Part shown: piece by piece, positions 8,272-58,409 of the stretch
Layout: each line of letters begins with the position of its first letter
Position numbering within the stretch: the stretch's first letter is position 1
Assembly (NCBI GenBank): GCA_001830425.1
Contig: MIAA01000043.1
Coordinates: forward strand, 24,780 to 83,188
Length of the DNA: 58,409 nt
Direction of reading: 5' to 3'
DNA from: Rhodospirillales bacterium RIFCSPLOWO2_02_FULL_58_16
GTDB lineage: Bacteria; Pseudomonadota; Alphaproteobacteria; Rhodospirillales; 2-02-FULL-58-16
Made by a program: the position numbers and the translations under genes
The notes under the pieces: generated by a model
What the model saw: only the letters and a program-made list of their open reading frames with translations
Databases searched by the model: none
Told to the model about the DNA's origin: nothing

Positions 8272-8431
8272 TAACACCCGGCGCGTTGATCGGAATAAGC
8301 ACTGTTTTATGAAATACAGAGGCTCAGAGACACAGAGGAGGGTAGAGAGAAAAAGAGAAAGCAAGAATAAACTTTACTTGATCTTCTTTGTGCCTCTGTG
8401 CCTCTGTGTCAAAACACACAGGCTGATAATT
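8272..8431. repeat. Dispersed repeat family A, copy 2
   Basis: About 160 bases nearly identical to 1830-1990, with the same ends and the same internal inverted repeat of CACAGAGGC-type sequence around a purine-rich centre. It lies between the two halves of a family C element, which suggests insertion. With its flanks it fills most of the 340-base gap between the HD-GYP gene and prfB; nothing in that gap looks coding. Confidence 0.85.
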
Positions 8432-20082: not shown

Positions 20083-21912
20083 ATGGCTCCTGCAAACATG
20101 ACACATGCTACCGATGCCGCCGATACCAACGTTCCCCCGACCGGCGAGAATTTTGCCGAACTCCTCGAAGAATCAATGGGCGCCAAGGGCTTTGAGGGCC
20201 GCGTTGTCACCGGCCGCGTGATCAAGATCGACGGCGACGCGGTGTTGATTGATGTCGGCTTGAAGTCCGAAGGGCGCATATCCCTGAAGGAATTCGCCAC
20301 CCCCGGAAAAGAAACCGTGATCGAACCCGGCGATACAATCGATGTTTTTGTCGAGCGTTATGAAGACAAGGACGGCATGGTCCGCCTCAGCCGCGAGAAG
20401 GCGCGCCGCGAGGAAGCGTGGACGGAGATGGAAAAAGCTTTCACCGGAGCCGTGCGCGTCAACGGCGTCATTTTCGGCCGGGTCAAGGGCGGTTTTATCG
20501 TCGATCTCGCCGGCGCCGTCGCCTTCCTGCCCGGCAGTCAGGTGGATATCCGGCCGGTGCGCGACATCGGACCTTTGATGGGGACGCCCCAGCCGTTCCA
20601 GATTCTCAAGATGGATCGCGCCCGCAACAACATCGTTGTTTCCAGGCGCGCCGTGCTGGAAGAAACCCGCGCCGAGGAACGCTCCGAATTGATCGCCAAC
20701 CTCAAGGAAGGCCAAGTCCTGGAAGGCGTGGTCAAGAACATCACCGACTACGGCGCCTTTATCGATCTCGGCGGCGTTGACGGCTTGCTGCATGTAACCG
20801 ACATGGCGTGGCGTCGCATCAATCACCCCTCTGAAGCGTTGCAGATCGGCGAGACCGTCAAGGTGCAGGTGATCCGCTTCAATGCCGAGACTCAGCGCAT
20901 TTCACTGGGCATGAAACAGCTCGAAGTCGACCCCTGGGAGGGAATCAAGACCAAGTACCCGGCGTCTTCCAAGTTTACCGGGCGAGTCACCAACATCACC
21001 GATTACGGCGCCTTCGTCGAGTTGGAGCCGGGCGTTGAGGGGCTGGTGCATGTCTCGGAAATGAGCTGGACCAAGAAAAACATTCACCCCGGTAAAATCG
21101 TTTCGACCAGTCAGGAAGTCGAGGTCATGGTGCTCGACACCGATCCGGAGAAGCGACGCATCAGCCTCGGCCTGAAACAGTGCTCCTCTAATCCCTGGGA
21201 GGCGTACGCCCAATCCTGCGTCGTCGGCTCCGAAGTCGAAGGCGAGGTCAAGAACATCACCGAATTCGGCCTGTTCATCGGGCTTACCGGCGATATCGAC
21301 GGCATGGCTCATCTTTCCGACCTGTCATGGTCCAAGCCCGGCGAGGAAGCCCTGGCCGATTACAAGAAGGGCGACATGGTCAAGGCCAAGGTGCTTGATA
21401 TTGACGTCGCCAAAGAACGGATCAGCCTCGGCATCAAACAGCTTGCCGATGATCCCTTTGCGAATGACGGCGTCAATCTCAAGAAGGGCGCCGTCGTCAC
21501 CTGCACCGTCACCGCCGTCACTGACGGCGGCATCGAGGTGCTGGTCAATGACTCGGTTGCCGGATTTATACGCAAGGGCGATCTGGCGCGTGAGCGCAGC
21601 GAGCAAAGGCCGGAACGTTTCGCCGCCGGCGAAAAGATCGACGCCAAGATAACTCAGGTGGATCACAATACCCGCCGCCTGACCCTGTCCATTAAGGCCC
21701 GTGAGACCGAAGAGGAAAAGAAGGCGATGGCCGACTACGGGTCGTCGGATTCCGGCGCCAGCCTGGGCGATATCCTGGGCGCCGCCCTTAAGGAAAAGAA
21801 AGCCGCCGATAAGGACGATGCTAAACCGGCCAAGAAGCCGGCGGCGAAAAAAACCGCCGCCAAGAAGGCATCGACGAAAAAAGCCGCCGCCGAAGCCGGT
21901 GAGGAGGCCTGA
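20083..21912 (+). CDS. rpsA: 30S ribosomal protein S1
   Basis: 609 residues from ATG 20083; an upstream in-frame TTG at 20056 has no better support. Six S1 RNA-binding repeats are visible. The last four have the usual pattern (VKNITDYGAFIDLGG, VTNITDYGAFVELEPG, VKNITEFGLFIGLTG and a weaker final repeat); the first two bind the ribosome. It brings structured mRNAs to the 30S subunit. The C-terminal tail (about residues 570-609) is Lys/Ala low complexity, a lineage-variable feature. Followed by repeat B1. Confidence 0.96.
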   Translation: MAPANMTHATDAADTNVPPTGENFAELLEESMGAKGFEGRVVTGRVIKIDGDAVLIDVGLKSEGRISLKEFATPGKETVIEPGDTIDVFVERYEDKDGMVRLSREKARREEAWTEMEKAFTGAVRVNGVIFGRVKGGFIVDLAGAVAFLPGSQVDIRPVRDIGPLMGTPQPFQILKMDRARNNIVVSRRAVLEETRAEERSELIANLKEGQVLEGVVKNITDYGAFIDLGGVDGLLHVTDMAWRRINHPSEALQIGETVKVQVIRFNAETQRISLGMKQLEVDPWEGIKTKYPASSKFTGRVTNITDYGAFVELEPGVEGLVHVSEMSWTKKNIHPGKIVSTSQEVEVMVLDTDPEKRRISLGLKQCSSNPWEAYAQSCVVGSEVEGEVKNITEFGLFIGLTGDIDGMAHLSDLSWSKPGEEALADYKKGDMVKAKVLDIDVAKERISLGIKQLADDPFANDGVNLKKGAVVTCTVTAVTDGGIEVLVNDSVAGFIRKGDLARERSEQRPERFAAGEKIDAKITQVDHNTRRLTLSIKARETEEEKKAMADYGSSDSGASLGDILGAALKEKKAADKDDAKPAKKPAAKKTAAKKASTKKAAAEAGEEA

Positions 21913-21923
21913 CAGGGTAATCT

Positions 21924-22100
21924 AATGAAGGGGCTTGATCCTATTTTGCCGTCATGGCCGTGCTTGTCACGGCCATCCACGTCTTGTTTTCAGGATAGAG
22001 TAGACGTGGATACGCGGGTCAAGCCCGCGCATGACAGATAGGAAAGTCCGTTGTGAACGGACCCTCCCTTACTAAGGAGATATTCAGTCGGTTGCCCTGG
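21924..22100. repeat. Dispersed repeat family B, copy 1
   Basis: About 175 bases shared with 29925-30100 and 49613-49783. Two stem-loops, ATGGCCGTG-CTTGT-CACGGCCAT and GCGCGGG-TCAAG-CCCGCGC, are held between GTCATG/CATGAC ends and a longer stem (CCACGTCT/AGACGTGG), giving a branched fold. In this copy a third hairpin, GTCCGTT-GTG-AACGGAC, follows. It fills the gap between rpsA and sppA; no coding potential seen. Confidence 0.85.
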
Positions 22101-22129
22101 GGGGCCTGATCTTTATATACTGAGGAAAT

Positions 22130-23059
22130 ATGCTGTTGGATGCCGATAACATTGTCGACAGGCGCCGTCTCAAGCGCAAGTTGACTTTCTGGCGGTTATC
22201 CGCCGTGGTCGCGGCGGTCATTGCGGCGGTCGTCGCGGCGGGACGCATCGGCGATATCGGCGATATCGGCGGCAAAATAGGCGGCGACGATCATGTCGCC
22301 CGCCTTGATGTCAGCGGCATTATTCTCGAAGACTATGACCGGGACAGGGCGCTTGATAAACTTGCCGATGACGGCAATGCCAAGGCCCTGGTTGTCTACA
22401 TCAACAGTCCCGGCGGCACCGTTGTCGGCGGCGAGGACCTCTTTCACAATATCCGGAAAATCGCCGGCAGGAAGCCTGTGGTCGCCCTGATGGGAAGCAC
22501 CGCCACCTCCGCCGGTTACATGACGGCGCTGGCCGCCGATCACATCATTGCGCGGGAAGGGACCGTCACCGGCTCTATCGGCGTCCTCATGCAGTCGGCG
22601 GACATGACCGGACTTTTGGACAAGCTCGGCATCAAGCCTGAAAACGTCAAGAGCCACCCGTTAAAGGCTCAACCCAATCCTCTGGAGCCTTTCAGCGAAG
22701 AGGCCCGCGAAGCCGCCAGAAACGTGGTCATGGACCTTTTCAATATGTTCGTTGATATGGTTGTTGACCGCCGCAAAATGAACCATGACCAAGTGATGAA
22801 GATGGCCGACGGGCGTGTTTTCACCGGTCGTCAGGCAAAGGAAAACGGCCTTATCGACGCCATCGGCGGTGAGTTTGAAGCGCGACGCTGGCTGAATGAA
22901 ACTCATAAAATCTCCGATTCCCTGCCGCTCAGGAATGTAGACATCGTGCGCAAAGGGCAGGTCTGGCGCGATCTTCTCGGCGCGAATATAGGAAAAATAC
23001 TTTTTTCTGAACGACTTGGCCTTGACGGCCCGATATCTATTTGGCACCCTGACAGTTGA
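22130..23059 (+). CDS. sppA: Signal peptide peptidase SppA (S49)
   Basis: A 309-residue membrane-anchored serine protease of the short SppA class, which degrades signal peptides left in the membrane. One N-terminal membrane helix (about residues 23-41), then the S49 domain with INSPGGTVVGGE, the Ser nucleophile segment GSTATSAGYM, the AREGTVTGSIGVL strand and GRVFTGRQAKENGLIDAIGG. GAGGA lies just before the ATG. The position between rpsA and ihfB is typical for alphaproteobacteria. Confidence 0.93.
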   Translation: MLLDADNIVDRRRLKRKLTFWRLSAVVAAVIAAVVAAGRIGDIGDIGGKIGGDDHVARLDVSGIILEDYDRDRALDKLADDGNAKALVVYINSPGGTVVGGEDLFHNIRKIAGRKPVVALMGSTATSAGYMTALAADHIIAREGTVTGSIGVLMQSADMTGLLDKLGIKPENVKSHPLKAQPNPLEPFSEEAREAARNVVMDLFNMFVDMVVDRRKMNHDQVMKMADGRVFTGRQAKENGLIDAIGGEFEARRWLNETHKISDSLPLRNVDIVRKGQVWRDLLGANIGKILFSERLGLDGPISIWHPDS

Positions 23060-23088
23060 TCTAATATTTCAACGGACGGAATGCGGAC

Positions 23089-23373
23089 ATGACCAAGTCG
23101 GAATTGATTGTGCGTCTCGCCGAGGCCAATCCTCACCTCTATCGGCGGGATGTAGAGCGCATAGTCACCACTGTTTTCGAGGAGATTATCACCGCTCTTG
23201 CCGACGGCAATCGTGTTGAACTTCGCGGCTTTGGAGCGTTCCTGGTCAAGGAGCGCGGGTCCCGCACGGGACGCAATCCCAGGACCGGCGCTATGGTGAG
23301 CGTCATCGCCAAGAACATTCCTTACTTCAAAACCGGGAAGAAGCTCCGCGAGAGGCTGAACGCCGGCTCCTGA
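23089..23373 (+). CDS. ihfB: Integration host factor subunit beta
   Basis: 94 residues. A DNA-bending nucleoid protein that pairs with IhfA. It begins [12 protein letters not shown], as usual for IhfB, has the [10 protein letters not shown] strand and the DNA-intercalating arm [24 protein letters not shown]. It lies downstream of rpsA and sppA as in related genomes. Confidence 0.95.
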
Positions 23374-23399
23374 ACCTGCCGTCAACACCGGAAGGAACA

Positions 23400-23756
23400 A
23401 TGACAAGACTGCTTTCCTGGATCGTCACGGCGCCGCTGGCGATTATCGTCATCGCCTTTTCCGTATCCAATCGCTCGACCGTGACGTTGGAGTTGTGGCC
23501 GCTTCCGTTCGTCGTGGAGATGCCCCTGTTCGTCGCCGTGCTGGGCGGCGCCGTCGCCGGCTTTCTGGCGAGCGGCTTCATTGCCTGGATTTCCGGCGCC
23601 GCCGTGCGCTCGCGGGCGCGCTCCCTGTCTTATCGGGCCGAGGCGGCGGAACGCGAGGCGGCGGAGCTTCGCGACAAGTTGGCGAGGCTTGAGGCCGAGA
23701 CCCACGTTTTTCATCATCAAGCTCTTTCCGCTCCCATCAAGGCCGAAGCGGCTTAG
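23400..23756 (+). CDS. LapA-domain (DUF1049) membrane protein
   Basis: 118 residues with two membrane helices (about 5-24 and 40-62) and a C-terminal coiled coil rich in Ala, Glu and Arg, the LapA/DUF1049 pattern. In E. coli, LapA works with LapB in lipopolysaccharide assembly control; a related envelope role is inference. The conserved segment SNRSTVTLELWPLPF is between the helices. Ends 7 bases before pyrF. Confidence 0.82.
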   Translation: MTRLLSWIVTAPLAIIVIAFSVSNRSTVTLELWPLPFVVEMPLFVAVLGGAVAGFLASGFIAWISGAAVRSRARSLSYRAEAAEREAAELRDKLARLEAETHVFHHQALSAPIKAEAA

Positions 23757-23763
23757 CGGTCCC

Positions 23764-24477
23764 ATGACCGTCACCAGTTCCGGCGGACGTGTTTTTGTCG
23801 CCCTCGACACCGTGGACGTTGGGCGCGCCGCAGCGCTTGCCGGTCGTCTTAAGGGCGTCGTCGGCGGCGTCAAGCTGGGCAAGGAGTTCTTCACCGCCAA
23901 CGGTCCCCAGGGAGTGGAACGGGTTTCCGCCGCCGGCCTCCCGGTGTTTCTCGATCTCAAGTTTCACGACATCCCCAATACGGTAGCCGGCGCGGTGCGG
24001 GCGGCGCTGGCGCTGAAACCTTTTATGCTCAATGTGCATGCCTCCGGCGGCGCGGCGATGATGAGGGCTGCGGTCGATGCCGCCGCCGAGGCCGGAGACG
24101 ACCGCCCCCTGATGCTGGCCGTGACCGTGCTGACATCGCTGGATGCCGACGACCTCAAGGCGACGGGCGTTGCCGGCGCCGTATCCGAACAGGCGGCGCG
24201 GTTGGCGTCGCTGGCCGAAGACTGCGGCATGGACGGGGTAGTGTGCTCGGCTTTCGAGGCCGGAATGCTCAGGCAACGCCTTGGCCCCGATTTCAAACTG
24301 GTGGTCCCCGGCGTCCGCCCGGTTTGGGCGTCCGCTGACGATCAGAAGCGGATAATGACGCCGGCTGAGGCGGTAAACGCCGGCGCCGATTATCTGGTGG
24401 TGGGGAGGCCGATAACCGGGGCGGTCGATCCTGTAAAGGCGGCTGAAAAAATCGCCGCCGAATTGGCTTCTGCCTAA
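23764..24477 (+). CDS. pyrF: Orotidine 5'-phosphate decarboxylase
   Basis: 237 residues from ATG 23764; a longer frame upstream overlaps the LapA gene and lacks family similarity. Makes UMP from OMP. The catalytic segment is LDLKFHDIPNTVAGAV near residue 60, and the phosphate-binding loop is VPGVRPVW plus the GRPITGAVDP segment. The stop overlaps the trpF start by one base (TAATG). Confidence 0.95.
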   Translation: MTVTSSGGRVFVALDTVDVGRAAALAGRLKGVVGGVKLGKEFFTANGPQGVERVSAAGLPVFLDLKFHDIPNTVAGAVRAALALKPFMLNVHASGGAAMMRAAVDAAAEAGDDRPLMLAVTVLTSLDADDLKATGVAGAVSEQAARLASLAEDCGMDGVVCSAFEAGMLRQRLGPDFKLVVPGVRPVWASADDQKRIMTPAEAVNAGADYLVVGRPITGAVDPVKAAEKIAAELASA

Positions 24478-25118
24478 TGGCTATCGACGTTAAAATTTGC
24501 GGGCTGAGTACGCCGGAAACCGTGGCCGCCGCCGTCGAGGGCGGGGCCAAGTACGTCGGCTTCGTTTTCTATCCGCCGTCGCTTCGTGCTGTGACATTGG
24601 AACAGGCCAAGGAACTGGCCGCCGCCGTGCCCAAGCATGTCAAAAGGGTCGGTCTAGTGGTAAACCCGGACGATAAGACGTTGCGGTCTATCGTCAAAGG
24701 CGGGTTTATCGACTTGTTGCAACTTCACGGACGCGAGATTCCCGAAAGAGTGGCTGAGGTCAAGAAGAAATTCGGCCTGCCGGTGATCAAGGCCATCGCC
24801 ATTTCCTGCCCTGATGATGTGGAGGCGGCGAAGTCCTATGAGGCCGTCGCCGATATTTTGTTGTTTGACGCCCTGGCGCCGGAACATTCAACCACGCCCG
24901 GCGGCAATGCCCTGGCCTTTGACTGGCAACTGATTCATGGCTATGTGTGGAAAAAGCCGTGGATACTGGCCGGCGGGTTGAATGTCGGCAACCTTCAGAA
25001 AGCGGTTCTCGCCTGTGACGCCACGGCGGTCGATGTCTCATCCGGCGTTGAGGTCTCCCGTGGCGTAAAAAGCGCGGGCAAAATTCGGGAATTCCTGAAA
25101 ATGGCCGAGATGCTTTGA
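24477..25118 (+). CDS. trpF: Phosphoribosylanthranilate isomerase
   Basis: 213 residues. Third step of tryptophan synthesis from chorismate. Motifs: the catalytic Cys segment VKICGLSTPE at residues 5-14, YVGFVFYPPSLR, LLQLHGRE, and the phosphate-binding end ILAGGLNVGN with AVDVSSGVE. Translationally coupled to pyrF. In many alphaproteobacteria trpB and trpA follow trpF; here they do not. Confidence 0.95.
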   Translation: MAIDVKICGLSTPETVAAAVEGGAKYVGFVFYPPSLRAVTLEQAKELAAAVPKHVKRVGLVVNPDDKTLRSIVKGGFIDLLQLHGREIPERVAEVKKKFGLPVIKAIAISCPDDVEAAKSYEAVADILLFDALAPEHSTTPGGNALAFDWQLIHGYVWKKPWILAGGLNVGNLQKAVLACDATAVDVSSGVEVSRGVKSAGKIREFLKMAEML

Positions 25119-25139
25119 CCGAATGAAAGGGACAGAAAA

Positions 25140-25766
25140 ATGAAAATCGAGAAAGTTGCTTTCTGCGTTCTCACAACGGCGATGCTGCTCATGGTTACTG
25201 TGTTGCATCACGCACCGGCGATGGCGCAGGTCAAAAAAGAATCTCCGAAGGCGGGGGCCGCGCCGTCCGCCCAACAACCGGCGTCCAACAAGAAGTTCGG
25301 GGATTGGACATTGATCTGCGAGAACGTCCCCGCCGCCGCCCCCGACCCCAAGGCCAAGGACAAAAAAGCCGCCGTCCCGACCCAGGAATGTTTTTTGAAC
25401 CAGACCCTTGCTTCCCAGGTGGGGGAGGGGGAGCAGGCCAGGCAGGGGCGTCTGCTCACCGCCAATATCAGCATGGCCGGTCAGGATAAGGAAAGAAAGC
25501 CGTTGCTGATCCTGTTTCTGCCTTTCGGCGTCGCCATCCAGCAGGAGGTCGGGGTGGATATCGAGAACGGGCCGCAGCTCAAGGGCAAGATGGATACCTG
25601 CCTCCAGGCCGGTTGCCGGGCCGCCTTCTTGCTGGATGACAATACCGTTGCGGCGTTAAAGCAGGCCAAGACTGCCCGGATCGGGTTCGCGCCTGTGGGC
25701 GGCAACGCCGTGGGGGTGACGCTTCCGCTGGCGGGGCTGGCCGAGGGAATCGCCGGCCTGAAGTAG
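25140..25766 (+). CDS. IalB-family periplasmic protein
   Basis: 208 residues with a clear signal peptide (about 1-30, hydrophobic core then APAMAQ). The mature part has the invasion-associated locus B pattern: FGDWTLICEN, a Cys in ECFLNQTL, KPLLILFLPFGV, and a Cys pair region TCLQAGCRAAFLLDD. The family is named after a Bartonella gene but is widespread in free-living alphaproteobacteria, so a virulence role should not be assumed. Function unknown. Confidence 0.85.
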   Translation: MKIEKVAFCVLTTAMLLMVTVLHHAPAMAQVKKESPKAGAAPSAQQPASNKKFGDWTLICENVPAAAPDPKAKDKKAAVPTQECFLNQTLASQVGEGEQARQGRLLTANISMAGQDKERKPLLILFLPFGVAIQQEVGVDIENGPQLKGKMDTCLQAGCRAAFLLDDNTVAALKQAKTARIGFAPVGGNAVGVTLPLAGLAEGIAGLK

Positions 25767-25936
25767 AGACAATTATTCCTCTCCTGCCTCCTCCTTGGTT
25801 AAGGATGGGAAAGTGGTTAGCGGCAGGCGCGTGGCAAATCGGCAACATACATGGCGCCTTTCAGAAAATGCCGGTTGCAAAATTATGCGGCGTTCGTTAT
25901 TGGTAATATCGGGGTTTTCTGTGAATCATTATTTTA

Positions 25937-28900
25937 ATGCCGGAAGTTCAAAGACGAAGGGAAGCGTTGGATGAAAAGCGATTCGGTAGTTTCGTTGTCG
26001 GATACCGGCAAGGGGGGGGGGCGTTCGGAAAATTTCTCCGCATGCCGATTTCGGCATTGGCCCTTGTCGCCGGCATTGCCATGCTTGCCTCTTCGCCGGT
26101 TGTCGCCGCCGAGCAGGATGACGCAGTAGACGACAGTTCGTCCACCGCGTTGACGGTGGGGAACTCCGCCAAGTTTACCGCTCCCGCCGCCGGCACGGAT
26201 GAAATTTTCACGATCGGCGCCGGCGTGACCGTCGGCGAAGGCGGCATAGTCGTGTCCGCCACCACCGCTAACGGCGTAGGCGCCCTGACGTTCGCCGGCG
26301 CATCGACGGCGACCGGCACCATCGGCGCCACCGGCAACCGGCTCGGTATTCTCAACGCCGGCGCGACCGGCACGACGGCGACCTTCACCGGCAACATCTT
26401 CGCCGTCACCACCAATGTGACGGGCGGCGCCGCCGGCACCATCGCCCTCCAGGGCGACCTTACCGGCACTACGCTCGACTTCGACGCCGACGGCACGGTG
26501 ACGCTCGCCACCGGCAAGAACATCACCGCCGCCATCACCGCCACCACCGCCAACAACGGCACGTTGACCCTCGCCGGCACCCACACCATCACCGGCGCCA
26601 TCGGCGTCATCGCCGGCGGCAACGAGTTGAAGCTGATCACCCTTGCCGGCGGCGGCGTAGTGACCACCACCGCCAATGTGGCCGCCACCTCGATCAACTT
26701 CACCGGCGACGGCAACCTGAAGATCGCTACCGGCAATACGGTGGAAGGCGCGATCACCACCGGCACCACCAACACCGGCACCCTCACCATGGACGGCGCC
26801 GGCGCCATATCGAGTCAAGTCGGCGCCAATGGCGCGGTGCTGAAGCTGGTTACCGTCGGCAACGGCGCGGTGGCGGTCAACGGCGACGTCTACGCGACCG
26901 CCGTGAACTTCGCCGCCGATAATACGTCCACGGTTGCGGCGGACAAGAAGATCGTCGGCGCAGTGACCACCGGAACCACCAATACCGGCACATTGACCTT
27001 CGCCACCACGACTGCCGCCACGACGCTGGTCAGCGGCAACGTCGGCGCCTCCGGCGCGTTGTTGAAGGCGGTTAACAGCACGGCCGGCAACGGAATCACC
27101 AACACTTTCGGCGGCGACATATACGCCACCACCACGACCTTCACCGGCGGCAATGCGACGTCGGTATTCGCCGTCGGCGGCGATATATCGGGCACCACGC
27201 TTGCCTTGGTCACCAACGGCGTTGTCAATATCGCGGCGGGCAAGAATGTGACTGCGGCCGTCACCACGGGCACGGCCAATATCGGCACCCTGAACTTCGC
27301 CGGGACCAACACGGTCACGGGGAACATCGGCGTGATCGGCGGGAACGAATTTTTGGCCTTCAACGTCAACGCCGGCACCGTGACCATGGGCGGCAACTTC
27401 GCGGCCGCCACCACCACGGTCGCCGCCTCGTCCACCCTGAAGACCACGGCGGCGCGAACCTACGAAGGCATTATCGCCAACAGCGGCACGCTTGATCTGG
27501 GCGGCACGTTGACGGCGACTTCCGGCGGCGGCGCTCTCGCCCTCGGCGCCTCCGCGACCTCCGCCATCGTTCTCGGTCAGGTCTCGGTCTATGCCGGCGG
27601 CGTGGTGATCAATGCGACGGACACCAACGTAACCGCCGCCAACGCCGTCACGGTTACTCCACATACGTTATTTACCTCAGGCACGTTGACGCTGGTTGAT
27701 GTCACCACCGGCACCAATGCCGCCAGCACCCAATACACGGTGACCGGCAACGCCCTGACGAGTTACGCGGTGACCGGGGGCGGGGGCGCTACCGACCTTA
27801 CCATCACCGCCACCAGGAAAGCTTCTTCGGCGATTGCGGCGAGTCTCGGAACGACCGCTTCGGCGGGCAATGCCCTCGGCGCCGGCGTCGATGCTACGGC
27901 GAATGATGCGACGGTTACCGCCGCTTATAATACTGCCCTGACGGCCGGCGGCGCGGAGGCCAAGAAGGCCGCCGAACAGTCCGAACCGATAAAGGTCGGG
28001 GCCGGGACTGCGGCCATGGCGCAGACCGGCAGTACGGCGTTCAACACCGTCAATATGCGTCTTGCCTCCATTCGCGAAGGCGGCGAATACGCCGGACGCG
28101 AGCGCACCGGCTTCGCCACCGGCAATTCCGGCCTGAACAAGGGAGTCTGGATGCGTCCGTTCGCCAACGTCGGCGACCAGGACAAGCGCGACGGCTTCGA
28201 GGGCTATAATTCCATCACCGGCGGCCTTGCCGGCGGCTTTGACGCCAAGGTCGGCGATAACTCCCGCATCGGCGTCGGCGTCAGTTATGGACGGTCATGG
28301 GTCGATGGCGACGGCGTGGCGAATAACCAGTCCGACATCGACAGTTACCAGGGCATGGTTTACGGCGATTATACCGCTTCGCGCTTTTATTTTGAAGGCA
28401 TGGCCGGTTACGCCTACAATGAGGTGAATACCGAACGCAGCGTTACCTTCGGCGGGTTAAGGCGCACCGCTCAAGGCGACTATCAGGCCGATCAGTACAT
28501 GGGCCGCATCGGCGCCGGCATACCCATCACCATCGCGAGCGGGCATGTGTTTACGCCCAACATCGGCTATCAGTACACCCGTCTGAACGGCGAATCCTAT
28601 ACGGAGACCGGGGCGGGCGCGTTGAATCTCAGAGTGAACCCCGACGACACCAACATCGGCCTCGCGATGGCGGGGCTGCGCTATAACGCCACTTTCTCGA
28701 CCGGCATCGGCAGTTTCAAGCCGGAGTTGCGGGCCGGAATGATGTATGACACCTTCGGGGAATCCGGGCAGTCGTCGTCCACATTCACCGGAGGCGGCGC
28801 GGCCTTCGCCACCACCGGGGCGGATAATGCCGACTTTTCGGGAACGGGAGGGGCCGGACTTACCTACACCGCTCCCAGCGGCGTAATTTCCATACGCGCC

Positions 28901-28972
28901 GACTATGACGCCGAGGCCAAAGAAGATTTCGTCGGTCACAGCGGGCGGCTTGAAGGCCGGTGGAACTTCTAG
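25937..28972 (+). CDS. Autotransporter with repetitive passenger, possibly phase-variable
   Basis: The open frame encodes 1011 residues: signal peptide ending near SSPVVAAEQ (about residue 57), a Thr/Gly/Ala-rich beta-helix passenger with repeats of about 70 residues (units begin GTLT), and a C-terminal 12-strand autotransporter beta-barrel (about 725-1011) ending in Phe (RLEGRWNF). The start is unclear. ATG 25937 is in frame but has no ribosome binding site. ATG 25971 has GGGAAG at good spacing but is in another frame, reaching the passenger frame only if the G10 tract at 26012 becomes 11 or 8. ATG 26042 would give a signal peptide without a basic N-region. A terminator follows at 28998. Likely a surface adhesin; inference from fold. 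Confidence 0.85.
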   Translation: MPEVQRRREALDEKRFGSFVVGYRQGGGAFGKFLRMPISALALVAGIAMLASSPVVAAEQDDAVDDSSSTALTVGNSAKFTAPAAGTDEIFTIGAGVTVGEGGIVVSATTANGVGALTFAGASTATGTIGATGNRLGILNAGATGTTATFTGNIFAVTTNVTGGAAGTIALQGDLTGTTLDFDADGTVTLATGKNITAAITATTANNGTLTLAGTHTITGAIGVIAGGNELKLITLAGGGVVTTTANVAATSINFTGDGNLKIATGNTVEGAITTGTTNTGTLTMDGAGAISSQVGANGAVLKLVTVGNGAVAVNGDVYATAVNFAADNTSTVAADKKIVGAVTTGTTNTGTLTFATTTAATTLVSGNVGASGALLKAVNSTAGNGITNTFGGDIYATTTTFTGGNATSVFAVGGDISGTTLALVTNGVVNIAAGKNVTAAVTTGTANIGTLNFAGTNTVTGNIGVIGGNEFLAFNVNAGTVTMGGNFAAATTTVAASSTLKTTAARTYEGIIANSGTLDLGGTLTATSGGGALALGASATSAIVLGQVSVYAGGVVINATDTNVTAANAVTVTPHTLFTSGTLTLVDVTTGTNAASTQYTVTGNALTSYAVTGGGGATDLTITATRKASSAIAASLGTTASAGNALGAGVDATANDATVTAAYNTALTAGGAEAKKAAEQSEPIKVGAGTAAMAQTGSTAFNTVNMRLASIREGGEYAGRERTGFATGNSGLNKGVWMRPFANVGDQDKRDGFEGYNSITGGLAGGFDAKVGDNSRIGVGVSYGRSWVDGDGVANNQSDIDSYQGMVYGDYTASRFYFEGMAGYAYNEVNTERSVTFGGLRRTAQGDYQADQYMGRIGAGIPITIASGHVFTPNIGYQYTRLNGESYTETGAGALNLRVNPDDTNIGLAMAGLRYNATFSTGIGSFKPELRAGMMYDTFGESGQSSSTFTGGGAAFATTGADNADFSGTGGAGLTYTAPSGVISIRADYDAEAKEDFVGHSGRLEGRWNF
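26012..26021 (+). repeat. G10 homopolymer tract in autotransporter 5' end
   Basis: Ten G in a row between the best-placed start (ATG 25971) and the signal peptide. Slippage by +1 or -2 would join that start to the long frame. Tracts of this kind act as translational on/off switches in several surface protein genes of other bacteria. Confidence 0.6.
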
Positions 28973-28997
28973 GCGACGGCTGCTTTGGGAAAACAAG

Positions 28998-29031
28998 AAT
29001 GGCCCTGCCGCGAGTCAGGGCCATTTCTTTT
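28998..29031 (+). terminator. Rho-independent terminator after autotransporter
   Basis: AATGGCCCTG and CAGGGCCATT form a perfect 10-base stem around an 8-base loop, followed by TCTTTTATT. It starts 26 bases after the autotransporter stop. Confidence 0.85.
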
Positions 29032-29057
29032 ATTGTAAAGCCTATGCGGAGCGGGTA

Positions 29058-29891
29058 ATGCGCGTGAAGCAAAATACGGCGGTTGTTGCCGCTGCGGGAC
29101 TGCTGGTTGCCGGGTGCTTCTCCGTTGATCGACCGGAGGTGGCCGGGGAGATCGCGACGCGGGCGGGAATGACGGCGTTGCAGGTGAACGGCGGCGCCTT
29201 TGTGCTTCAGACCTTCATGCGACTTGGGAAACCGGGAGCGCCGATTCACGTTTATGTGGAGGGAGACGGCTTTGCCTGGATCAACCGGTCTCAGCCGTCC
29301 CCCGACCCGACGCCCACCGACCCGACGGCGCTTCGTCTGGCGGCGGCGGACCCAAGCCCGAACGTGGTCTATGTGGCCAGACCCTGCCAGTATGTGCGAA
29401 GCGGCGGGAGTCGGCGCTGCGAGGAGGATTACTGGACCGAGCGGCGTTTTGCTTCCGAGGTCGTGGAAAGCGTCGATGAAGTGATCGGAAAGCTGAAGGA
29501 GAGGGGAGGGGGCGGCCTCATCGACTTGTTCGGCTTCTCGGGCGGCGGGGCCGTTGCGGCATTGACGGCGGCGCGGCGAACGGACGTGGCGAGCCTACGC
29601 ACCGTGGCCGGTAATCTGGACCATGTGGTAATGAATCAGAGGGCCGAGGTCAGTCCCTTGATCGGTTCGCTCAATGCCGCCGATGTGGCGGACAAGCTCT
29701 CCGCCGTTCCCCAGATTCATTTTATCGGAGGGGAGGACAATATCACGCCATCCTATATCGCCGAAAGCTACAAGGCGCATGCGCGCCGAAAGGATTGCAT
29801 CGCCATTGTTCCGGTTCCCGGCGTTTCGCATATCGATGGATGGACGGAGCGATGGGGGAGCCTTTTGAAGCGTAATTTGCCTAAGTGCTGA
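29058..29891 (+). CDS. Putative lipoprotein with alpha/beta-hydrolase fold
   Basis: 277 residues from ATG 29058 (GGAG seven bases upstream). The signal peptide ends in the lipobox LVAGC at residues 17-21, so the mature protein is probably lipid-anchored. A serine hydrolase triad can be proposed: Ser in GFSGGGAVA, Asp in GGEDNITP, His in GVSHIDGW, in the right order and spacing. The substrate is unknown. It follows the autotransporter terminator, so it should have its own promoter, and is followed by repeat B2. Confidence 0.75.
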   Translation: MRVKQNTAVVAAAGLLVAGCFSVDRPEVAGEIATRAGMTALQVNGGAFVLQTFMRLGKPGAPIHVYVEGDGFAWINRSQPSPDPTPTDPTALRLAAADPSPNVVYVARPCQYVRSGGSRRCEEDYWTERRFASEVVESVDEVIGKLKERGGGGLIDLFGFSGGGAVAALTAARRTDVASLRTVAGNLDHVVMNQRAEVSPLIGSLNAADVADKLSAVPQIHFIGGEDNITPSYIAESYKAHARRKDCIAIVPVPGVSHIDGWTERWGSLLKRNLPKC

Positions 29892-29924
29892 TCTGCGCCA
29901 GATCGGGTGTTGTTGCAGGACAAT

Positions 29925-30100
29925 CGAATGAAACAACCCGGTTCTATTTCACCGTCATGGCCGGGCTTGTCCCGGCCATCCACGTCTTCTTTACCATGGC
30001 GACGAACAAAAAGACGTGGATGCGCGGGTCAAGCCCGCGCATGACGAACAAGAATGGCGACTCTTTGGCTATTATGGAGACATTCAGTTGATTGCCCCGG
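29925..30100. repeat. Dispersed repeat family B, copy 2
   Basis: Second copy of the 21924 repeat. The first stem-loop reads ATGGCCGGG-CTTGT-CCCGGCCAT, so both sides of one base pair differ from copy 1. The outer stem CATCCACGTCTT/AAGACGTGGATG and the GCGCGGG/CCCGCGC hairpin are perfect. It takes up most of the 334 bases between the lipoprotein and DUF2934 genes; nothing else is seen there. Confidence 0.85.
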
Positions 30101-30225
30101 GCGTAGATTTTTTCCGAGTGCGTTTTTGCTGCGATTGATGTACAATGCACCATTGCGGGGGACACGGCATAGATATTTATGCTTTAGTTGAGGGGGATTT
30201 AATCATAAATGAAAGGGTTACGACT

Positions 30226-30432
30226 ATGAACGAGCAGCAGGCCAAGTATATACAGGAGCGCGCTTTTTTCCTTTGGGAAGCAGAGGGCGGTCCCGAGGGA
30301 CGGGATTTGGACTATTGGCTCAGGGCGGAGCAGGAAGTGCTGACCGGGAGCAGTTTCTCCTCGGCGGCTGATATCAGCAAAAAGGCTATCGCCAATTCCG
30401 CCAAGAAAACGTCCCGCACCAGGAAGGGGTAA
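30226..30432 (+). CDS. Small DUF2934 protein
   Basis: 68 residues from ATG 30226 with AAAGGG nine bases upstream. The N-terminal 35 residues (IQERAFFLWEAEGGPEGRD, then YWLRAEQEV) match the DUF2934 pattern common in alphaproteobacteria. The tail is basic, Lys/Arg/Ser-rich. Function unknown. It lies between repeats B2 and C2. Confidence 0.75.
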   Translation: MNEQQAKYIQERAFFLWEAEGGPEGRDLDYWLRAEQEVLTGSSFSSAADISKKAIANSAKKTSRTRKG

Positions 30433-30474
30433 TACCGACGGTCATTGATATTGACCGTTGACAGCTCCCGCGCT

Positions 30475-49577: not shown

Positions 49578-49612
49578 GGACGATAAACACCCCGCATACC
49601 GCAGGGCAATTT

Positions 49613-49783
49613 ACTGAAAGAACTTGATCTTATTTTACCGTCATGGCCGGGCGAAGACCCGGCCATCCACGCCTTCTTTGCCTTGGCGACGAACGAAAAG
49701 ACGTGGATGCGCGGGTCAAGCCCGCGCATGACGAACAAGACGGGCCGTTGTGAACGACTCTTGACATTCAGTTGATTGCCCTG
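49613..49783. repeat. Dispersed repeat family B, copy 3
   Basis: Third copy. The first stem-loop keeps the GGCCGGG/CCCGGCC stem but has a different loop (CGAAGA), and GCGCGGG-TCAAG-CCCGCGC is unchanged. It lies between glgC and tRNA-Gln, in a 253-base gap with no other feature. Confidence 0.85.
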
Positions 49784-49830
49784 TCGCGTACCGTCTACCC
49801 AAGACGAAAATGCTGTGTTAGAAAATAGTC

Positions 49831-57106: not shown

Positions 57107-58409
57107 GCAATGGAAATGAAATCCGTGGTGACGAGTTGTTGGTTCTCGACCACGGAAACCAGGATCAACTCGTCAGCCGTGATATTGTCAACCGCAGCCC
57201 CGTTTTCGGCGTAGTAGTAAACCGCCGTACTGTTGCTGCCCTGGGCGGCGATCAGGGCGTCGACGCCGCTGGTTGGAGCGGAACCGACGGACATATAGGC
57301 ATTGATCTTGGCAATCAGAGCAGCGAAGCCGGATACCGTCAGATCGGCATCGGCAAGGGTGGTCCCGGCCGCATTGGTCAGGAACAAGGCCTCGTGAGTG
57401 GCGTTAAAATCAACCGTCGCATTGGTAGCCCATGAGAGAGATGTATTGGTTGCCCCCATATCGTTAACGGCGGCGGCCATGGTATCAAGCAAGCTGAACT
57501 TGTCGGCGCCGGAAACAAAGTCGGTAATCCTGTCATAGCCGGTAGCCGCTCCCGCCGCCGCCCCGTCGGTGATCGCCATGTATTGGAAAATATCTACCCC
57601 ACTGCCGCCTATCAGGATATCAGCGCCGCCACCGCCGTTGAGAGTGTCATTGCCGGCGCCGCCGTCAAGAGTGTCATTGCCGGAGTTGCCGCTGATGACT
57701 TCATTGATCGCGCTGCCGGTGATGGCATCGTTCCCCGTGCCGCCGGTGATGGTCTCGGTGTTGGAAACAGTCAACGTGTTGGTCCCGTCGGCAAGCGTCA
57801 GCGCGTCGGCGGTGCCCGCTCCAAGATTGATCGTTCCCGAGACCTGCGCCGCGCCCAGCGTAATGGCGTCGTTCCCCGTGCCGCCGGTGATGGTCTCGGT
57901 ATTGGAAACAGTCAACGTGTTGGTCCCGTTGGCCAGCACAAGACGGTCGGCGCCGCCTCCGAAGTCAAAGACCCCCGAGACCTGCGTCGCGCCCAGCGTA
58001 ATGGCGTCGTTCCCCGTGCCGCCGGTGATGGTCTCGGCGTTGGAAACAGTCAACGTGTTGGTCCCGTCGGCAAGCGTCAGCGCGTCGGCGGTGCCCGCTC
58101 CAAGATTGATCGTTCCCGAGACCTGCGCCGCGCCCAGCGTAATGGCGTCGTTCCCCGTGCCGCCGGTGATGGTCTCGGTATTGGAAACAGTCAACGTGTT
58201 GGTCCCGTTGGCCAGCACAAGACGGTCGGCGCCGCCTCCGAAGTCAAAGACCCCAGAGGCCTGCGCCGCGCCCAGCGTGATGGTGTCGTTCCCCGTGCCG
58301 CCGGTGATGGTCTCGGTATTGGAAACAGTCAACGTGTTGGTCCCGTTGAAAAGGGTTATGGAGTCAGTCCCCGTCCCCAGGTTGATCGTTCCCGAGGCCT
58401 GCGCCGCGC
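57103..58409 (-). CDS. RTX-type repetitive secreted protein, 5' end beyond window
   Basis: At least 434 residues, open to the window edge, so partial; no start in the window is convincing. From the N-terminal side: repeats of 46-47 residues alternating two kinds (one with SGVFDFGGGADRLVLANG, one with SGTINLGAGTADALTLADG), each ending NTLTVSNTETITGGTGNDAI-like; then RTX nonapeptides (GNSGNDTLDGGAGNDTLNGG) that should bind calcium; then a Gly-poor C-terminal domain (about 170 residues) fit for a type I secretion signal. Probably a secreted adhesin or surface protein. No type I secretion genes are in view. Confidence 0.8.
   Translation of the reverse strand, partial: AAQASGTINLGTGTDSITLFNGTNTLTVSNTETITGGTGNDTITLGAAQASGVFDFGGGADRLVLANGTNTLTVSNTETITGGTGNDAITLGAAQVSGTINLGAGTADALTLADGTNTLTVSNAETITGGTGNDAITLGATQVSGVFDFGGGADRLVLANGTNTLTVSNTETITGGTGNDAITLGAAQVSGTINLGAGTADALTLADGTNTLTVSNTETITGGTGNDAITGSAINEVISGNSGNDTLDGGAGNDTLNGGGGADILIGGSGVDIFQYMAITDGAAAGAATGYDRITDFVSGADKFSLLDTMAAAVNDMGATNTSLSWATNATVDFNATHEALFLTNAAGTTLADADLTVSGFAALIAKINAYMSVGSAPTSGVDALIAAQGSNSTAVYYYAENGAAVDNITADELILVSVVENQQLVTTDFISIA
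57745..58409 (-). repeat. Tandem repeat array, alternating 141/138-bp units
   Basis: The segment GGTGATGGTCTCGG recurs at about 57745, 57886, 58024, 58165 and 58303, spaced 141, 138, 141 and 138 bases. Two unit types alternate, so the true near-identical repeat is about 279 bases. The array runs past the window end. Confidence 0.9.

Follow-up and report, generated by a model that had tools for sequence, protein, structure and literature searches.

CGTC-tagged REP dimers lie within mini-transposon-like shells in a Rhodospirillales genome

The window, by which we mean the whole stretch of 58,409 nucleotides analyzed here (Rhodospirillales bacterium RIFCSPLOWO2_02_FULL_58_16, contig MIAA01000043.1), contains three related copies of a repeat, Family B, at 21924, 29925, and 49613, as a sequence-only reading of the same DNA had proposed. 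All five matches to CATCCACGTCTT in the window (at most one mismatch; 0.24 by chance) fall within these copies, and as single-stranded DNA copies 1 to 3 fold with z-scores of −6.7, −6.2, and −4.0, each beating all 200 shuffles. That reading had also described the repeats as bounded by GTCATG/CATGAC, which would form an outer stem around two stem-loops. These motifs are present and can pair, but they are not the ends of the element, and they form their stem in competition with the last pairs of each hairpin, one or the other appearing in the folds. When the three copies are aligned, conservation exceeds the hairpins described earlier and reaches a left limit at CAGGGCAATCnAnTGAA and a right limit at its reverse complement. 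The element thus continues to terminal inverted repeats, which sets the full extent of the copies as follows:

21913 to 22099, plus strand: Family B copy 1, full MITE-like element (shell M1) with a REP dimer inside
21903 to 21912, unstranded: copy 1 left target copy, GGAGGCCTGA, 9 of 10 positions identical to the right copy
21913 to 21929, plus strand: copy 1 left terminal inverted repeat, from the end search
21950 to 21985, plus strand: copy 1 REP unit 1, GTG/CAC stem type, followed by the foreign spacer GTTTTCAGG
22001 to 22036, minus strand: copy 1 REP unit 2, covariance model match
22083 to 22099, minus strand: copy 1 right terminal inverted repeat, from the end search
22100 to 22109, unstranded: copy 1 right target copy, GGGGGCCTGA
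29916 to 30099, plus strand: Family B copy 2, full MITE-like element (shell M1) with a REP dimer inside
29953 to 29988, plus strand: copy 2 REP unit 1, covariance model match
30011 to 30046, minus strand: copy 2 REP unit 2, covariance model match
49602 to 49783, plus strand: Family B copy 3, full MITE-like element (shell M1) with a REP dimer inside
49592 to 49601, unstranded: copy 3 left target copy, CCGCATACCG, 8 of 10 positions identical to the right copy
49639 to 49675, plus strand: copy 3 REP unit 1, with a 6-nt loop
49698 to 49733, minus strand: copy 3 REP unit 2, covariance model match
49784 to 49793, unstranded: copy 3 right target copy, TCGCGTACCG

A search of the window against Rfam returned two tRNAs only. 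Outside Family B, the window also holds a separate 81-nt repeat at 1831 to 1911 and 8272 to 8352, whose two copies are 91% alike and have inverted CACAGAGGC-type arms close by, and units of about 138 to 141 nt in tandem at 57695 to 58409, which lie within a long minus-strand reading frame and likely encode a repeat protein.

The outer layer of the element, which we call shell M1, has 17-bp imperfect terminal inverted repeats (CAGGGCAATCnACTGAA) and measures 182 to 187 bp in the window copies. With up to three mismatches allowed, the M1 end matches the window six times, at both ends of the three copies (0.25 matches expected), and the genome (2.73 Mb, 53 contigs) 24 times, against a single match for the reversed control. 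Five full-length elements of 182 to 196 bp emerge from this search, three in the window and one each on contigs C29 and C14, together with a left half (C39) and a right end (C1). M1 thus shows the features of a MITE, namely terminal inverted repeats, no coding capacity, and several copies (five full). Identity between the ten bases on either side of an M1 element averages 6.2/10, compared with 2.15 for flanks taken from different elements; the signal peaks at a length of 10 only and is reached by 41 of 5000 permutations, close to the minimum attainable with five elements. The individual 10-bp target duplications are imperfect, with 9, 8, 6, 5, and 3 of 10 positions shared, that of copy 2 being weak (6/10). 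The stop codon of an S1-domain protein gene falls within the left target copy of copy 1, with GGCCTGA occurring a second time behind the element.

The orthologous sites speak to the history of these copies. The gene for the S1-domain protein and, after it, that for an S49 peptidase flank copy 1, and all five same-family relatives that carry both genes lack an M1 end and a REP unit at this site. The same comparison yielded no counterpart for copy 3, as none of the seven relatives with gltX has glgC on the same locus. The five full M1 copies sit in different gene contexts. Terminal inverted repeats, target duplication, and absence from the copy 1 site in five of five relatives therefore support the history of mobility that the sequence-only reading had suspected. 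A DNA search with copy 2 found a match in at least 19 of 31 genomes, our own included; none of the relatives has a full M1 element with a REP dimer among the matches listed, and dispersal is accordingly seen in one genome only.

The M1 ends begin CAGGGCAAT... (also given as CAGGGCAATC). The accessible part of PMC2266710 describes the IS4Sa subgroup of the IS4 family by ends of the form CA------T and duplications of 8 to 10 bp, and the M1 ends and the 10-bp duplication conform to this. IS4 elements also have a DDE transposase with a YREK motif; the element encodes none, and a PF01609 search of its own genome, a draft assembly with gaps, gave no match. We therefore class M1 as having IS4-like ends rather than as a member of IS4. 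Judged by their sequence, the ends point to a DDE transposase rather than a REP-type (Y1) one. The exact M1 end occurs at 62 loci in GTDB genomes, mostly by chance, and three of these loci (L181, L157, and L159) have an inward-facing second end within 3 kb. Of the three, L157 was considered as a parent IS and rejected, both ends falling within open reading frames, and L159 was judged by eye only. At L181 (positions 372 to 476 of a Magnetospirillum contig) lies a 105-bp element that looks like a MITE; its ends are M1-like, and it contains a CCCCTCGCCCGCAAGCGGGCGAGGGG palindrome but no REP dimer.

The inner layer consists of hairpins built to a common plan: CGTC unpaired at one end, a 9-bp stem mostly starting AT (ACC or TT in a few units), a loop of 5 nt (three units have 6 nt), and a CCA tail of the form CCACGTCTT. 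By tag, stem, loop, and tail, these hairpins are the CGTC-tagged REPs set out in the accessible text of PMC3733652, a superfamily marked by an unpaired CGTC (or TGTC/CCTC) tag, stems of 8 to 9 bp that open with AT pairs, loops of 4 to 5 nt, and a CCA-like tail. The interior of Family B holds two such units head to head, and this arrangement predominates among the 26 REP groups, 15 being head-to-head (+−), three tail-to-tail, seven single, and one triple. Searched with a covariance model of the unit, the genome yields 66 matches at E ≤0.1, of which 51 fall below 1e-8. Some units lie at a contig end (L063, end of C12) or beside runs of N (L058, L060, and L064), so that the REP count of this assembly is a lower bound. 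At three loci (L057, L061, and L062, at C20:74128, C38:10037, and C20:21306), the middle of a REP hairpin is replaced by an inverted CCCCCGG...CCGGGGG-type hairpin, as if one had been copied into another.

Could a REP-associated tyrosine transposase (RAYT, Y1 type) be moving the REP dimers, as the sequence-only reading had proposed to check? The genome does contain one Y1_Tnp gene (C16:57296-57622, 52 bits), the sole Y1-type (RAYT-like) transposase gene found, a 280-codon reading frame in locus L065 (C16:53000-62000). However, no CGTC REP unit lies in the 9 kb around it, the tag is CGTC and not GTAG, and target duplications of 10 or 8 bp are not expected of HUH transposases, which sets the 10-bp duplications of M1 and the 8-bp duplications of a second shell (in relative G012, below) against this mechanism. 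Likewise, PMC3733652, as far as its accessible text goes, found no CGTC unit flanking such genes. The distinguishing marks of REPIN/RAYT systems, the GTAG tag and a RAYT gene flanked by REPs, are thus not seen here; a role of this gene as the mover is unsupported, and we regard it as very improbable.

We then turn to the difference between copies 1 and 2, which the sequence-only reading had interpreted as a pair of compensating mutations. The difference is real: the first hairpin has a GGCCGTG/CACGGCC stem in copy 1 and GGCCGGG/CCCGGCC in copy 2, and copy 3 retains the latter stem with a new loop that is one base longer. Covariation over the collected copies is also pronounced. Stem pairing across 24 distinct REP units amounts to 98.1%, six of the nine pairs show two-sided changes, and none of 500 shuffles reaches the covariation score, a test that kinship among the sequences inflates; sliding the arms abolishes the signal. 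As the 24 units had been picked partly for pairing, the selection was redone with tag and tail only, and is thus blind to pairing. It yielded 56 sequences, of which 42 pair at 9/9 positions, five at 8, and one at 7, the remaining eight being chance-like sequences that pair at 5 or fewer. Pairing maintained in this way, along with the position of all three window copies just downstream of a plus-strand reading frame, is what one would predict if a transcribed hairpin were under selection, for instance for mRNA end protection or attenuation, and had accumulated true compensatory mutations.

Several observations argue against this explanation. Intermediates with half-changed stems are hardly seen, and identical stem types are found again in other genera. 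Furthermore, the stem type is linked to its surroundings: a GTTTTCAG spacer comes after the GTG/CAC stem in 9 of 13 rows, compared with 2 of 38 for other stem types (51 rows in all, with related copies counted as independent and one chance row, C14:112972, included), and copy 1 has this stem and this spacer together. With C25:51930 left aside, the copy 1 spacer resembles those of the other four M1 copies no better than shuffled sequence does (398 to 499 of 500 shuffles equal it), but it beats all 500 shuffles against three other elements. The spacer is therefore foreign to the other M1 copies, and the first hairpin and spacer were replaced together. Consequently, the claim of compensating mutations is not supported, as a hairpin type moves en bloc with its spacer rather than arising through two point mutations; on these alignments, the change between copies 1 and 2 is best read as a swap of hairpin type by segment replacement. 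Predicted terminators show no excess in 21700 to 30400 either (12 versus 10.5 expected). Template switching that perfects palindromes would be expected to yield an identical pattern without selection. We therefore consider selection on a transcribed hairpin distinctly unlikely as the source of the covariation. As two-sided stem changes can come from the exchange of whole segments, covariation in mobile palindromes is on its own no evidence for a functional RNA.

Dimers are not confined to M1. In the same genome, REP dimers of the Family B type also lie between two other sets of conserved ends, M2 (GGTCATTGATATTGACCGTTG) and M3 (GCGCGTCAGGATTGAT); a further shell pair was recognized by eye at C32:41128 and C20:21306, and each of the elements at C27:111391 and C20:74128 combines two shells into a chimera. 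The 11 M2 end matches, sorted by eye, comprise five with REP dimers, one remnant with a nested hairpin, four with a CCCCTCC palindrome, and one with neither. One M2 left end lies in the window (from 30439-30460 onward) and is followed by a CCCCTCCTTACCAAGGAGGGG palindrome in place of the REP dimer, without any REP unit. Among the nine paired M3 elements, again judged by eye, two hold the Family B type of dimer and seven another CGTC-tagged one (GTCATTGCG type); these seven, at L111, L116, L120, L125, L130, L132, and L135, are shells of 189 to 206 bp with the repeat pair GTCATTGCGACCG...GCAATCCAG. We claim no target duplication for M3, as the nine elements give only a weak 4-bp signal. Overall, among the matches listed, a non-REP end is common to at least two groups for 22 of the 27 REP groups in this genome (35 groups were found, and eight were dropped as chance hairpins far from known REP places; loci L033, L035, L063, L096, and L098 are left out of the count).

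The relatives extend this picture. Genome G012 has six paired shells with GGCTCTTCGACGTT ends that are unrelated to M1, and their target duplication peaks at exactly 8 bp (6.5/8 versus 3.07; 9 of 5000 permutations). The cargo is a CGTC REP dimer in four of the six and a CCCTC palindrome in the other two. The ends presumably resemble those of the ISL3 type; a search for the ISL3 transposase (PF01610) gave none in G012, G017, or our own genome (G000), and one match each in G018 and G027, genomes where dimers stand alone. In G017, dimers have long common flanks with CTGTCCGGTT ends (by eye). Among the matches listed, a non-REP end is shared by 4 of 13 groups in G012 and 7 of 9 in G017 (some of the latter groups being weak), but by 0 of 11 in G015 and 0 of 13 in G018; in G027, 2 of 20 groups among the matches listed pass the threshold, with a score of 15 that lies within the shuffle range (maximum, 19). 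Thus, REP dimers stand alone in some genera and are the cargo of shells in others, and the dimers without shared flanks in G015, G018, and G027 imply that shells are not their sole route.

We therefore propose that each Family B copy is probably the relic of a nonautonomous DDE-type MITE with a CGTC REP dimer as cargo, which was moved in trans by a transposase that is now missing, and whose hairpin units and spacers were exchanged between shells. The starting points of this proposal are direct observations: the ends, the duplication length, the five full copies in different gene contexts, the absence of the element from the copy 1 site in relatives, and the dimers in unrelated shells. Movement of the shell is then most likely given its ends and duplications, and exchange of units given the chimeras and the block exchange. 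As searches of the genome turned up no parent transposase, we infer transposition in trans, in which a transposase since lost from this genome would move the shell and the REP dimer would travel as a passenger. Near-identical palindromes may allow hairpin units and spacers to be exchanged between shells, whether through recombination, conversion, or template switching. Such exchange would yield mosaics, in which an entire stem type switches at once yet stays paired.

Alternatively, the REP dimer itself might be the mobile part, inserting into MITEs whose palindromic middles are preferred targets, so that the shells were REP-free earlier. This alternative is serious because shells with other cargo exist, namely the CCCCTCC palindrome in 4 of 11 M2 matches, the CCCTC palindrome in two of six G012 shells, and the M1-like Magnetospirillum element. 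Dimers with unique flanks in G015, G018, and G027 also favor it, as does the wording of PMC3733652, which in its accessible part speaks of REP dimers inserted within palindromes. However, in all five full M1 copies the dimer sits in one register and the flanking inner sequence is common, which requires that the element was assembled once and then moved as a whole, and so favors dispersal as a unit. Moreover, no shell equal to a filled shell minus its dimer was found, the cargo being replaced and not simply absent. On balance, we judge separate insertion of dimers rather unlikely, and retain the REP dimer as passenger of a mobile shell.

A broader version of this proposal is quite possible, though we would lean somewhat against it: CGTC REP dimers could be a traveling cassette, repeatedly picked up by unrelated DDE mini-transposons (M1, M2, M3, the 8-bp shell of G012, and the G017 shell) and reshuffled at the hairpins. 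If so, a hairpin pair in the middle of the element may help the mini-transposon, for example if it draws the two ends together or shields the neighbors of the element. Reshuffling of cassettes and shells at hairpins would let REPs spread although they have no transposase themselves, a question that the accessible text of PMC3733652 leaves open, and suggests how hairpin repeats lacking one could disperse. With REP dimers inside shells that have transposon-like ends and two fixed duplication lengths (10 bp and 8 bp), this idea is directly testable. In the partial literature collection that we searched, no title or abstract describes REP dimers nested in MITE shells.

How do these elements compare with known systems? 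REPINs combine GTAG-type REPs with an HUH transposase, whereas the tag is CGTC here, the ends are of the DDE type, and no REP lies near the Y1 gene. The likeness to REPINs, which are mobilized by RAYT in what is accessible of PMC3116915 and PMC2817692, lies in paired inverted palindromes dispersed across the genome. In Neisserial mosaics, a small repeat flanks larger ones; here, instead, the REP dimer sits in the middle of the shell between inverted ends. The dRS3 and mosaic elements of Neisseria nonetheless share the combination of CGTC-type repeats with other repeat families in mosaics, dRS3 being CGTC-1 in the part of PMC3733652 at hand. The IS4-derived bacterial MITEs covered by the accessible sections of PMC2266710 are similarly short and noncoding, with terminal inverted repeats starting CA with T at position 9 and a target duplication of about 10 bp; M1 differs in that no parent element was found in its genome and its interior is a REP dimer, not an IS remnant. 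With the CGTC-tagged REPs of Di Nocera, De Gregorio, and Rocco (2013; PMC3733652, accessible part), the elements share the CGTC tag, the 9-bp stem that begins with AT, the loop of 5 nt, and the CCA tail, as well as head-to-head dimers and the lack of an adjoining transposase. In two species of that study, REP dimers lie inside longer palindromes, which the same part of the text does not describe as transposon ends with target duplications, and for which it leaves the mover open. Here, in contrast, the dimers lie in several shells with transposon-like ends, two of which have duplications of fixed length.
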